In this document: in pieces, positions 52,553-59,760 of the stretch
Position numbering within the stretch: the stretch's first letter is position 1
Layout of the letters: every line of letters begins with the position of its first letter
Notes under the pieces: generated by a model
Databases searched by the model: none
Seen by the model: only the letters and a program-made list of their open reading frames with translations
Told to the model about the DNA's origin: nothing
Source: Cytophagaceae bacterium
GTDB taxonomy: Bacteria; Bacteroidota; Bacteroidia; Cytophagales; Cytophagaceae
Assembly: GCA_025454925.1 (NCBI GenBank)
Contig: JALONM010000006.1
Location: forward strand, 1-64,000
DNA: 64,000 nt
Direction: 5' to 3'
Position numbers and translations under genes: made by a program

Positions 52553-52680
52553 AAATCGGCATTTTACCTAAGACGAGAAGTATTCGATAAAAAAGATTTT
52601 TGGTTTAGAGAATCAGGGACTTTAAAAAAACTTCTTACCCGATTTTTTCTGAAGCCCTTGATTATAATAGTCGGTTTTTA
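52553..52680 (+). repeat. Very weak trace (D) of the GCGAAGC/GGAGAAA repeat
   Basis: CGGCATTTTACC...AAG near 52553 and TTTTTTCTGAAGCCCTTGAT near 52644 resemble parts of the copy at 10711 and its downstream flank (TTTCTTCTGAAGCCTTTGAT). The middle does not align well by eye. Confidence 0.25.
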
Positions 52681-52697
52681 AATTTAAATCAGAAGTA

Positions 52698-52817
52698 TGG
52701 GCGTGTCCCGTCGTGGCGCCTTTAGCGCCACTATAGGCCGGGCCTTCGCTGCAAGTCCTCGTGGTGGCGCTTTCAGCGCCAACGCCACTGCGGGCTTTTC
52801 GCTCTGTCCCTCACGCA
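52698..52817 (+). repeat. Hairpin-rich interspersed repeat, forward copy
   Basis: The element runs from TGGGCGTGTCCC to GTCCCTCACGCA, with GGCCGGGC...TTCGCTGCAAGTCC between and a TTTTCGCTCTGTCCC module near the end. Two internal hairpins fill the variable parts: GTGGCGC/GCGCCAC near 52713 and GGCGCT/AGCGCC near 52766. GCGTG near the left end and CACGC at the right end are complementary, giving short terminal inverted repeats. A reverse-oriented copy is at 59628-59760. Confidence 0.85.
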
Positions 52818-54770: not shown

Positions 54771-57700
54771 CTACTCTAACACCAAGGGAAAATCATGTCC
54801 TCGTGAAAACGTATACGGGTATTGAATCTTATTGCTGTGTTCACGGTTTAATTCCGGTACCTGATCATCGAGGTATGATTTGATTTCAAACAGAGTGATC
54901 TTGCCATCGTCGGGAGCTCCGTCTGCCGCTCCCTCCAAGGCTTTCAGGAGTACATACGTAAATATTCCATGTTTCAGAGTAGCCACTTCTTTTGCATTTT
55001 GTTCACTTCCTGCAGAAGCAAGAATGTGAATGCCGGCACTCCTGGAAAGTTGAGCCATCGCTTTTTCCTCCATGCCTCCGCGCATCGCCAATAGTTCCAC
55101 CGATCCTCCCGATTGACAAGCATCCATGATTATGATTTGCTTCAACGCTTTTATTTTTTGTAGGCGGTTTTGGATTTCACTGGCCTCCACAGCGCTGCTG
55201 GAGAGGGCTCCAGCTTCATACAAACGAGTACATTCATGTGGGATAAAATAAAATTTTCCATCGTTCATACTACCATGTCCGGCATAGTATAAAACAAACA
55301 CATCGTGCGAAGCAATAGATTTAGAAAGTTTATCCAAAGTGTCTAAGATATTCTTTTTGCTGGCTTCAGCATCAAACAAGCTGTGCACACGAATTTCCTT
55401 GTATAGGTTTTTACCTTTTGCAGCAAATGTTTGCACAAAATCTTCGGCATCTTTTCGCGCATAGTTTAATTCCATGTTGGCGTTTTTGTATTTATTAATA
55501 CCTATAGCAAGCACATGGCACACAGCGGCATTGGGTGCGTAAGGGGCCAGGTATTGCGCACTTGATGGCGGCGATTCAATTCGGAGACGGTTAATGCCTA
55601 CCGCTTCGAAAGTATTCATGCCTCCTACCAGATCAACCGTGTCTACATAAATCTTTGAATTGTTTTTCCCTTCCGGAAATTGAAGTCGAGCCGGTTTGAT
55701 TTCAATATTTTTGCCATTATGCATGAGTCGTAATTCTGCTACACCACCCCCCAGGTCGGTCATGCGCACATGCAGGCTGGCTTGTTTTCCATTGGCCAAA
55801 GGTTGCAGTGCCACTTTCAGCAGAGGAGGAGGAGCCTGGTTTAAGCGGGAATCAATGCTTACCTGGGAGCCGGATTCTGTATTGCCTCTTAATTTGAAAA
55901 TGGAACTAAAAAGATCAGGTCGGTAAAACTCATTAAAAAATTGCTCGGGTTTAAATACTTCCAATCCGCGCACAAAATGAATGGAATTGCGAGCTCCATT
56001 GGTGGCATTAAAATAGCCTTCTTTGGTTTTTACCATCCAATCGCGCTCATTCAAATGAATGTGCTCATAAAACTCACTGCCCTTATCCAGGTTCCAACAT
56101 TTTATAATCCCATCAATGCTGTACGATAAAAGTGATTTTCCGTCACTGGTGATTTGCAAGGAAGTAATCTGTGTTTGATGGCCTTCCAGGGTTTTTAACA
56201 CCTTGGCACTGCCAATATCCCAGATTCGAATAATGCGGTCGTCGCCCGCGGTAATAATTCTTTTTCCATCCGGCATAATCAGCGCGGCATGCAGGGGTTC
56301 GTTGGTTTTAAATTTCTGGAGCATAATGCCTGTGGTAATATCCCACAACCTTGCCGATCCATCCCACGAAGCACTCAGCATCTTGTATTTATCGTTTCCA
56401 AAGCTAACGGAGGAAACCATATCACTGTGTCCGATAAAACTTCGCACCAGTTTCCGAGAATCAGGTTCGTATAACTCCAAAGTTTTATTGAGTCTTCCAA
56501 CAACCAGGTACAATCCATCCGGACTAAAACTTAGTGAGTAAGGAGCTCCACCATCCAGATCGAGCAAGGATTCTTTGGTGCCTGTTTGTATATTCCAAAC
56601 GCTTACCTGGCTTTCCCAACCACCTAGGGCCACTTGCTCTCCGGAAGGATGTATGCTCATGCACAGAATAGGATGCCGGCTGTGATGAATGCTGCGCAGC
56701 GACTGTCCGCTGTTCAAGTCCCATACCATGGCATCGCCCGCTATATCGCCGGTTATCAGTAGTTTTCCATTTTTACTATGTTCCAGACTTAAAACGGCTT
56801 TGGAATGTCCATCTAAAATTTTATCGGCACTTCCTTTTTCCAGGTTCCACCAAACCGCTTTTTTCCCAATTTTGCCACTGGCCACATGCACATTGTCGGG
56901 CGCCAGCGAAATTACAGTTTTTAGCTTGGTATACTGGGCTATGTGAGAAGACCAATACGAATCCGGATCGTAGTCCAAGCCCCCTTTGTCGGCCTTTTGC
57001 AGCAAGCCTTCCAGCGTTCCTGCAATTTTACGTTCAGCAATGTTCCATACCAGCGTCGTATTTTTGTCGCAAGCCATGTACAACTGTTTTCCCTCTTTGT
57101 CTATCACCATTTCGTTAATGGTGCCATGCTTGCCTATATACACTGAGTCTAATCGCTTTTGTGAAGAAACTTGCAGCACCGAAAGCAGAGTGTCTGCCAT
57201 GCAATACAAAAGCTGATTGTCCGGTGAAAAAACGATGCCACCAATGTCATCGCCTTCCATGGCGAAGGTAGCCATGAGTCTTCCCGTCTCCAGTTCATAT
57301 ACTTCCGGTGCTCCATTTTGCGAAAACTTGGCCAGCAATTTACTATCCTGACTAAAATTGATAACGGTGCCGCAACCGCCACAGGAGCCTCTGGCAGGTG
57401 TAAAGGTATGCACCAAACTCCAATCTGAAACCCGGAATACTCGAACTGTTTTATTGTCTTCACCCAGTGCCATCCATTTTCCATCCGGACTTATTTCTAC
57501 CTGCACCCCCATGCCTCTGCCTTGATCTGCATTCACAGCAATTTTGAGTACGCGCTTGGTGGAAGACATTGAAAAAATTTCAAGGCTGTCGCTGTATCCC
57601 GCCACTACCAGCGATTTTCCATCGGGGGTAAAGGCAACATCGGTGATGTATTTGTCAAATTCAGGACTTGTAAACAGCAGTTTGCCACTCATGATGTCCC

Positions 57701-58022
57701 ATACACGTGCTTTCTGGTCATAGCTACCTGCTGCCAGCCATTTATGGTCGGCGCTAAATTGCAGGCTGTTGAGGGTAAGACCCGCACCGGTTAAGTTTCG
57801 TAATTCTTTGCGCGATTCCACATCCCATAATTTCACCAGGCGGTCCCTGCTACCGGTGGCAGCCAGCTTGCCATCTCCACTCAGGCAAACCGTTTTTACA
57901 GCGCCCGAATGCCCTTGTTGAATTATCGTTTCTAATTTGGTAACCTGCGCCTTGGCTAAAGGTGAGATCAGGCAATAAATACCAACACTTACCAGAGCCG
58001 AAAAATACATTGCTTTCATCAT
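54771..58022 (-). CDS. Secreted WD40 double-propeller protein with C-terminal caspase (C14) domain
   Basis: The protein of 1083 residues begins with a signal peptide (MMKAMYFSALVSVGIYCLISP). About residues 30-660 hold fourteen WD40-type repeats by count of their terminal strands (VKLWDVESRKEL, ARVWDIMSGKLL ... IRIWDIGSAKVL, IKCWNLDKGSEF), enough for two seven-bladed propellers. A beta linker (RDWMVKTKEGYFN...) leads to a caspase-like C14 domain (VLAIGINKYKNANMELNYARKDAEDF) with His916 in YYAGHGS and Cys969 in MDACQSGG. Such proteases usually cleave after Lys or Arg; the propellers probably bind a partner. Start 58022 fits the signal peptide; the frame runs on to 58208, overlapping the divergent gene. 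A periplasmic or surface location is predicted. Confidence 0.9.
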   Translation of the reverse strand: MMKAMYFSALVSVGIYCLISPLAKAQVTKLETIIQQGHSGAVKTVCLSGDGKLAATGSRDRLVKLWDVESRKELRNLTGAGLTLNSLQFSADHKWLAAGSYDQKARVWDIMSGKLLFTSPEFDKYITDVAFTPDGKSLVVAGYSDSLEIFSMSSTKRVLKIAVNADQGRGMGVQVEISPDGKWMALGEDNKTVRVFRVSDWSLVHTFTPARGSCGGCGTVINFSQDSKLLAKFSQNGAPEVYELETGRLMATFAMEGDDIGGIVFSPDNQLLYCMADTLLSVLQVSSQKRLDSVYIGKHGTINEMVIDKEGKQLYMACDKNTTLVWNIAERKIAGTLEGLLQKADKGGLDYDPDSYWSSHIAQYTKLKTVISLAPDNVHVASGKIGKKAVWWNLEKGSADKILDGHSKAVLSLEHSKNGKLLITGDIAGDAMVWDLNSGQSLRSIHHSRHPILCMSIHPSGEQVALGGWESQVSVWNIQTGTKESLLDLDGGAPYSLSFSPDGLYLVVGRLNKTLELYEPDSRKLVRSFIGHSDMVSSVSFGNDKYKMLSASWDGSARLWDITTGIMLQKFKTNEPLHAALIMPDGKRIITAGDDRIIRIWDIGSAKVLKTLEGHQTQITSLQITSDGKSLLSYSIDGIIKCWNLDKGSEFYEHIHLNERDWMVKTKEGYFNATNGARNSIHFVRGLEVFKPEQFFNEFYRPDLFSSIFKLRGNTESGSQVSIDSRLNQAPPPLLKVALQPLANGKQASLHVRMTDLGGGVAELRLMHNGKNIEIKPARLQFPEGKNNSKIYVDTVDLVGGMNTFEAVGINRLRIESPPSSAQYLAPYAPNAAVCHVLAIGINKYKNANMELNYARKDAEDFVQTFAAKGKNLYKEIRVHSLFDAEASKKNILDTLDKLSKSIASHDVFVLYYAGHGSMNDGKFYFIPHECTRLYEAGALSSSAVEASEIQNRLQKIKALKQIIIMDACQSGGSVELLAMRGGMEEKAMAQLSRSAGIHILASAGSEQNAKEVATLKHGIFTYVLLKALEGAADGAPDDGKITLFEIKSYLDDQVPELNREHSNKIQYPYTFSRGHDFPLVLE

Positions 58023-58110
58023 ACTGGAAGATATCGATTGAGAAACATTTTTCCAACACTTTTGGCATTCGCCTTGCCTTTTGTAATTTACATCCAATTC
58101 CATTGATCGT

Positions 58111-59142
58111 ATGAAAACTAATTTCCTATCTTTTCTACTAGCACTGCCTCTGTTCCTTGGGGCACAGAAACAAGATTCCGTAGTCATTGCCGGAGTAGGC
58201 GATATCATGTTCGGAACAAATTATCCTTCCCCTTCCTACTTGCCTCCCAACGATGGGAAAAATTTGTTGGATTCTGTCGCTTCATACCTGAAGTCTGCAA
58301 CCATTACTTTTGGCAACGCAGAAGGGACTTTTCTCAACGAAGGTGGTGAAGTCAAATCATGTTCCAATCCTGCGGTCTGTTACGCTTTCCGGCAGCCTGT
58401 TCGATATGCACAATATTTTCTTCAGGGAGGTTTTGATTTAATTAGTGTAGCCAATAATCATGTCGGCGATTTTGGTGAAACCGGTCGCCGGAGCACTGCC
58501 AAAACGTTGTCGGAGGCTGGACTGGGGTTTGCTGGACTCCTTACGCATCCTTATACAATTGTGGAACGCGATGGAAAAAAGTTCGGGCTGGTGGCTTTTT
58601 CGCCTAACGGCGGAACCTGCGACATTAAGAATATTCGCGAAGCGGCAAAACTGGTAAAGAAGGTGGATAGCTTATGCGATATTCTCATAGTTTCGTTTCA
58701 TGGCGGCGCGGAAGGAAGCAAGCATACGCATGTCACCAAGAATACAGAAATCTTTTACGGCGAAGACCGTGGTAATGTGCATGCATTCAGTCATGCCATG
58801 ATCGATGCCGGTGCCGATGTGGTGTTTGGTCATGGTCCGCACGTAACCAGGGCGGTTGAAGTGTATAAAAATAGATTCATAGCCTACAGCCTTGGTAATT
58901 TTTGTACCTATGGCAGGTTTAATTTAAAAGGAATTAATGGACTGGCTCCGATTATAAAAGTAATGACGAATCAAAAGGGGGAGTTTATGAAAGCGGATGT
59001 TATTTCTACACGCCAGATAGGAGAGGGGATACCCGTGATCGATCCGACAGAAGGAGCTTTCAAACAGTTGGAAATGCTCACCAACTCTGATTTCCCGGGC
59101 CATGGCTTACTGTTTCACAACAATCAGATCCGTTTGAAATAA
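58111..59142 (+). CDS. CapA-family (PGA_cap-type) metallophosphatase-like protein
   Basis: The 343-residue protein has a signal peptide (MKTNFLSFLLALPLFLGAQ) and the CapA fold: VVIAGVGDIMFGTNY, NAEGTFL, VANNHVGDFG and VSFHGGAEGS...DVVFGHGPHV. CapA proteins belong to the metallophosphoesterase-like group tied to poly-gamma-glutamate capsule export, though many Bacteroidetes homologues have unknown roles. The start is 88 bases from the divergent WD40-caspase start, so the two share a promoter region. No other capsule synthesis genes of this type adjoin. Confidence 0.88.
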   Translation: MKTNFLSFLLALPLFLGAQKQDSVVIAGVGDIMFGTNYPSPSYLPPNDGKNLLDSVASYLKSATITFGNAEGTFLNEGGEVKSCSNPAVCYAFRQPVRYAQYFLQGGFDLISVANNHVGDFGETGRRSTAKTLSEAGLGFAGLLTHPYTIVERDGKKFGLVAFSPNGGTCDIKNIREAAKLVKKVDSLCDILIVSFHGGAEGSKHTHVTKNTEIFYGEDRGNVHAFSHAMIDAGADVVFGHGPHVTRAVEVYKNRFIAYSLGNFCTYGRFNLKGINGLAPIIKVMTNQKGEFMKADVISTRQIGEGIPVIDPTEGAFKQLEMLTNSDFPGHGLLFHNNQIRLK

Positions 59143-59627: not shown

Positions 59628-59760
59628 TGCGTGAGGGATAGAGTGTAAAGCCTGTTGGCGTTGTGGCGCGAAAGGCGCCACAACCCCAACAAGGGCTTGA
59701 AGCGATAGCCCGGCCCGCGGTGACGTGGCGCCGAAGGCGCCACCACAAGGGACACGCCCA
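59628..59760 (-). repeat. Hairpin-rich interspersed repeat, reverse copy
   Basis: Read on the minus strand it runs TGGGCGTGTCCC...GGGCCGGGC...TCGCTTCAAG...TATCCCTCACGCA, matching the element at 52698-52817. Its internal hairpins (GTGGCGCC/GGCGCCAC; TTGTGGCGC/GCGCCACAA) differ in sequence and length from the other copy but keep pairing. Confidence 0.85.

Follow-up and report, generated by a model that had tools for sequence, protein, structure and literature searches.

The window, that is, the whole stretch of 64,000 nucleotides that was analysed, contains only two copies of the element described here, and both are intergenic. Copy 1 (52699–52817) lies on the plus strand, which we call the reader's strand and whose complement is the Flavo-1 strand discussed below, between an unassigned gene encoding a 262-aa protein and a carboxyl-transferase gene; it is detected with an E-value of 6.5e-22 and a score of 130.9 bits by R1, a model based on copies from the same genome only. 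Copy 2 (59628–59759, minus strand, E = 1.4e-16) has the same architecture, with a longer arm 2, and is flanked by a WD40-caspase gene and a UDP-glucose/GDP-mannose dehydrogenase gene. Two such copies had been announced in a preliminary description of this DNA, and they are indeed present. The minus strand of the window also encodes (54771–58208) a protein of 1145 aa that combines WD40 propellers with a caspase-like domain (Peptidase_C14) at its C-terminus. A remnant of another interspersed repeat, about 190 bp long when complete (AATTTTTCAATAGAAATTCTTCTATTGAAAAACGACTACTAAAATCAAGGGCTTCAGAAGG...), lies directly upstream of copy 1 (52640–52690, minus strand); this repeat often adjoins the element (L061, L050, L004), and one of its copies, on contig C54, starts at the stop codon that ends a Y1-transposase fragment.

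The element folds as a three-way junction, and the same plan recurred when 52 copies were folded separately: an outer stem P1 (GCGTG/CACGC), a short hairpin arm P2 (CCC–tip–GGG) and a long arm P3 (GGG, two pairs, a loop, GC, a loop, AAGYCC–tip–GGGCTT, then CCC) which carries two symmetric 3x3 internal loops. In copy 1, the 5' strand of P1 (GCGTG, 52701–52705) pairs with the 3' strand (CACGC, 52812–52816), which covaries in both the own-genome and the related-genus alignments. The P2 arm, or arm 1 (52707–52737), consists of CCC, a variable tip (GTGGCGCC TTT AGCGCCAC) and GG. The P3 arm, or arm 2 (52740–52810), is the only one that corresponds to the Rfam model of Flavo-1; it reads GGG, a 2-bp helix, an internal loop, GC, an internal loop, AAGTCC, a variable tip, GGGCTT and CCC. 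The two window copies have in common the series GGGCGTGTCCC ... GGCCGGGC ... TCGCT ... TCCCTCACGCA, and their hairpin tips differ while the pairing is retained, as the preliminary description had proposed when it spoke of a fixed frame with inner modules.

The genome (4.5 Mb in 135 contigs) contains 180 occurrences of the right end CCCTCACGC, versus 9 for the reversed control, and 122 matches to the pattern GGGCGTG-N(17-47)-GGGYCGGGC, versus 0 for the control, so the repetition of the element is not a matter of chance. A covariance model built from 33 own-genome copies returns at least 146 full-length copies (E ≤ 0.01), all of which match model positions 1–119; this is a lower bound, obtained by scoring 150 of 1221 candidates with the model. 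The pair seen in the window are copies of a DNA element of about 120 bases, of which the genome contains about 150. A small copy number would have spoken against the interspersed, folded element that had been suggested, and the count is the opposite of that. Conservation ends at (T)GGGCGTG on one side and at CACGC(A) on the other, and longer flanks are common to a subset of copies. In one copy (L043:1741–1854, minus strand) the tip of arm 2 contains a long run of C, which comes either from a replication slip or from an assembly error.

The stems covary. In an alignment of 33 own-genome copies with 35 pairs, 94.4% of the cells are paired and the covariation score is 0.096, versus 0.053 for shuffled alignments (0/500) and at most 0.029 when the partners are slid; one P3 pair is C–G in 16 copies, U–A in 17 and broken in none. 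The score is 0.097 versus 0.030 for 138 copies from a related genus, g175, where the last pair of P1 is G–C in 90 copies, U–A in 47 and broken in 1, and 0.193 versus 0.064 for 74 distinct copies mostly from other Bacteroidota, with 97.5% of pairs formed; the latter two were aligned by fitting to the model, which biases their pairing percentages towards it, and more weight should be given in them to the two-sided changes and to the slid controls. The joint changes can also be read directly from the copies, where the letters of P3 swap together (TA/TA, CA/TG, TT/AA, TC/GA), and the loss of one base on one side of an internal loop is usually matched by a loss on the other. In independent sets of sequences, the fold is borne out by covariation. 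The preliminary description had inferred from covarying stems that the folded form is what is kept, an idea that uncompensated changes would have refuted; compensating pairs are present in the three alignments, with a higher contrast outside the own genome.

Across the phylum the frame hardly varies, while the tips do so freely, as do three base positions: the tip N and, in the 3x3 loops, N1 and N2 (one per loop) are found with any of the four bases in the related genus. The combination C/C is absent from the junction letters in 59 own-genome copies (Fisher 6e-8) and in 78 copies from the genus g175, and present in 3 of 45 copies in a mixed named set from other genera. This avoidance is a hint that two purines might be in contact at the junction on the Flavo-1 strand.

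A search of the whole window against Rfam at the gathering cut-off returned no match, nor did a search with copy 1 alone, even at E ≤ 10. The gathering score of Flavo-1 (RF01705) is 42 bits, which the window copies do not reach, and relatives in the same genome score 28 bits (L043) and 25 bits (L022). Two Flavobacterium copies that have the same frame, L156 and L078, score 62.7 and 62.1 bits with RF01705, on the opposite strand, and R1 matches L078 and L156 with 49.8 and 48.3 bits. The variant of the window is thereby tied to accepted members of the Flavo-1 family. The 76-position Rfam model spans the P3 arm alone and is written on the complement of the reader's strand; the helix order that we derived independently is that of the Rfam alignment: a 3-bp helix, a 1-nt offset, a 2-bp helix, a 3x3 loop, GC, a 3x3 loop and a stem, with the consensus helices and the two purine-rich 3x3 loops on the Rfam strand. 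The strand-specific letters are identical (GAUAGNAGCGGA...GNAGCGGAUAGC) and, like Flavo-1, the element occurs in Bacteroidetes. On the contrary, the outer stem P1 and the hairpin arm P2 are not part of the Rfam model, and in the own genome the internal loops lack one base on each side (in the window copies, each loop is shorter by one base on one side) and the tips are GC-rich. The element belongs to Flavo-1 as judged from homology; it is an enlarged variant, which scores below the cut-off and has two helices beyond the Rfam model. The preliminary description had overlooked that the family was already catalogued, on the other strand and as one arm. Alongside complete elements, a number of solitary P3 arms, which match model positions 23–84 only, occur in two Flavobacterium-like genomes, G343 (for example at C1:1704251–1704313) and G451, and they may be the reason why the Rfam model has one arm.

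Flavo-1 was published in 2010 by Weinberg et al. as a candidate RNA, marked neither as cis-regulatory nor as a switch (PMC2864571), and Rfam gives it the type "Gene; sRNA". In RNA-seq data from Flavobacterium psychrophilum, the only transcriptome comment on Flavo-1 that we found, the matches lie sense and antisense alike and many are outside transcripts (PMC9723704). No functional study of the family came up in the literature that we searched, and Rfam has listed it since 2010 as a candidate RNA to which no function is assigned. The present results suggest that the Rfam entry is one arm of a larger unit and that the transcript viewpoint is unsupported by the RNA-seq. The Rfam result on the window at the gathering level, taken alone, would have concealed the family.

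The complement, that is, the Flavo-1 strand, is the more stable when folded with RNA parameters in 55 of 59 own-genome copies and in 67 of 81 related-genus copies, and with DNA parameters in 55 of 59 and 73 of 81, respectively. A hand-written consensus of the related genus forms the three-way junction on the complement only. On that strand the internal loops present GNA facing GGA, and a common tip is a GNA triloop. As a counter-argument, one P3 pair is usually U–G on the reader's strand, which makes it C–A on the other. The imbalance between G–T and A–C proved weak as a test of the strand. RNA and single-stranded DNA are not distinguishable from sequence. Gene orientation, counted from open reading frames that were defined simply as the longest frames, leaves the choice between DNA and RNA undecided as well: in g175, the two neighbours of a copy both have the Flavo-1 strand as their sense strand in 38 cases versus 13, while there is no such bias in the own genome (9 versus 11), where 29 of 54 copies lie between convergent genes. 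On the single contig of G343, where a replication-strand bias was looked for, about 22 copies are concordant with the sampled GC skew versus 13 discordant, by a hand count and with a skew that is itself irregular.

Close relatives occur in many other Bacteroidota, in agreement with the similar GGGCGTG elements that the preliminary description mentioned for other Bacteroidetes. The right-end matches that were listed include Flavobacterium, Pedobacter, Niabella, Mesonia, Aquimarina, Algoriphagus, Adhaeribacter, Rufibacter, Mucilaginibacter, Saprospiraceae, Tannerellaceae and others; the single non-Bacteroidota record among them (L342) has no left half, and it may be a stray match or a contamination. 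In the window's own family the distribution is patchy, from 0 to at least 57 copies per genome. The right-end pattern is found in 4 of 2.9 million viral contigs, and we rejected a viral carrier on that ground. Two kinds of variants were seen. In g175, there is a subfamily whose outer stems read GCGTT/AACGC and whose P3 differs in its interior (CCACTCGC...GAGCTCAGACAATGG); it occurs at L176:16238, L192:1969, L228:2468 and other places, in several of them beside a copy of the main subfamily in the opposite orientation. In MAG-134 and MAG-72 (L285, L306, L318, L323, L336), versions of about 200–240 nt have very long, near-perfect P2 hairpins, and most of them have in common an insert in P3 (CTAGCAGTGTCTTCCGCTGTCAGCCCTGCTAG).

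The genus g175, in which the frame is near-constant and every copy has a distinct loop of about 33 nt, makes it possible to compare copies at the same site. In nine orthologous pairs from the related genus, the left part of the frame is 95% identical and the right part 81% (a figure that includes about 10 loop bases and so understates conservation), while the identity is 61% in the loop and 60% and 69% in the flanks; non-orthologous flanks are 46–49% identical. Orthologues swap tips, for example CCCTTCGGG for CCCCGCCGAAAAAGGCGGG. Since orthologous loops are on average no closer than unrelated ones (0.61 versus 0.59), most of these pairs may alternatively reflect independent reinsertion at the same site or replacement of the tip by recombination. 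We also considered that the loops could be guides or spacers, and rejected it: a weak consensus runs through the loops, and common descent is clear in two orthologous pairs, which makes ordinary divergence a sufficient explanation. In the same genus, some sites hold a copy in one species and none in another. From this and from the identity of the orthologous frames, it follows that copies are gained and lost, and that those which are retained keep their frame. The intergenic flanks are too diverged for a target-site duplication or a clean empty site to have been obtained.

We lean towards the reading that the element is a dispersed repeat, probably mobilised in trans and recognised as a folded single strand, with an additional constraint in place. 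It starts from what is directly observed, namely the fold, the copy number, the dispersal, the filled and empty sites and the frame retained at orthologous sites. The functional molecule would be the Rfam strand in a folded, single-stranded state, either DNA exposed at replication or RNA. A putative protein would read the frame (the outer stem, the junction purines and the purine-rich 3x3 loops) rather than the tips; encoded elsewhere, it would copy or insert the element in trans, which would result in a non-autonomous spread. The same recognition, or a use found by the host, may then hold the resident frames under purifying selection. Mobility is supported by two copies that are 93% identical in unrelated flanks (L001 and L002), by the filled and empty sites and by the patchy distribution in the family; the element is present as whole full-length units at unrelated sites, and every apparent half-copy in the related genus turned out to be an intact variant. 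Our search returned no mobilising gene, and none of the loci that were read has an autonomous version in which the ends enclose a gene. These two results go against the preferred reading, as do the diverged flanks that yielded neither a target-site duplication nor a clean empty site, the orthologous loops that are no closer than unrelated ones, and a conservation at fixed sites that exceeds what a purely selfish element needs.

The latter observation brings us to the idea that each copy has a function for the host at its site, as a chromosomal or RNA element involved in protein binding, DNA topology or the processing or stability of mRNA, whose dispersal would be old and which selection would have maintained, mobility being secondary. 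We regard this as possible, though rather doubtful: it would account for the frames kept at orthologous sites with diverging flanks, for the fact that nearly all copies are intact and for the sense bias in the related genus, but it fits poorly with the patchiness within one family, with sites that are filled or empty depending on the species, with the own genome, where the sense bias is absent and most copies lie between convergent genes, and with the F. psychrophilum matches, sense and antisense alike and often outside transcripts.

It is improbable that the element is a trans-acting small RNA gene family, as filed by Rfam: the Rfam strand does have a stable and covarying single-strand fold, but the copies, about 150, are dispersed and their tips unrelated, the transcripts in F. 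psychrophilum are not consistent, and the own genome shows no orientation bias. Mobilisation as a REP/BIME-type element by a RAYT (TnpA-REP) transposase, which the preliminary description had proposed to look for, has an equally small chance of being correct. The intergenic hairpins at high copy number would suit it, as would the Y1 gene found about 270 bp from the single copy detected in genome G049, and Bacteroidetes RAYTs of subclass 2.6 have been reported to be flanked by "atypical secondary structures" (PMC6006769). A search for Y1_Tnp in the own genome and 21 others, in which those loci that could be excised were re-scanned with model R2, does not bear it out: near 32 Y1 loci (30 from copy-bearing genomes and 2 from the own genome), only 3 full copies lie within about 1.5 kb, never on both sides, which is close to what the density of copies predicts. 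Two genomes that have copies of the element, G218 and G202, have no Y1 match, and the own genome has just two Y1 fragments, near other repeats. The GTAG/GGAG tag at the foot of a single hairpin is also absent, the aligned copies having GGGCGTG/CACGC ends and three helices. We therefore rejected the link to RAYT, since Y1 genes are not systematically beside copies and G218 and G202 have none; of the proposal of a REP/BIME-like or mobile element, the dispersed, high-copy, folded repeat stands, and membership of the REP/RAYT system does not. On contig C61 of the own genome, a Y1-transposase fragment (L031) lies amid GTTGATGCGTAGCATCAAC repeats, which form a separate REP-like family. Last, intrinsic terminators are very improbable in spite of the GC-rich hairpins that often lie between convergent genes, because flanks that are T-rich in 5' and A-rich in 3' on the reader's strand leave no U-run after the stem on either strand, and termination needs neither fixed unpaired bases nor a three-way junction.

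Coming back to the dispersed repeat that is recognised as a folded single strand, we would tentatively go one step further, although we doubt this more than we trust it: Flavo-1 might not be a small RNA but one arm of a class of mobile, structured DNA that is spread over the whole phylum, namely a three-way junction with interchangeable tips that a putative enzyme would read as folded single-stranded DNA, and that the host would have co-opted, with resident copies under selection. Which protein binds the folded strand, and whether the element is moved, used or both, are questions that have become testable now that the complete junction has been described, free positions have been told apart from fixed ones and many copies can be compared at the same site in one genus.

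Among known systems, miniature inverted-repeat elements (MITEs) are also short, non-coding and dispersed as whole units; in contrast to them, the outer inverted match of the element is just 5 bp and its internal fold is conserved, and in the loci that were read, whose flanks have diverged, no target duplication was visible and no gene-carrying relative was seen. The CGTC-tagged palindromic repeats, reported also in Bacteroidetes, are likewise dispersed palindromes without a dedicated transposase (PMC3733652), but they are short single hairpins with a CGTC end, whereas the element has GGGCGTG and CACGC ends and two arms. Like REP and BIME sequences, it is intergenic, present in high copy number, hairpin-forming and probably recognised as a folded single strand; unlike them, it has neither the GTAG tag nor an association with a Y1 transposase, and it forms a three-way junction of about 75–240 nt, whereas a REP hairpin has 21–65 nt (PMC6006769). 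A mobiliser reading a three-way junction of single-stranded DNA would differ from RAYT and from the hairpin readers of IS200/IS605.
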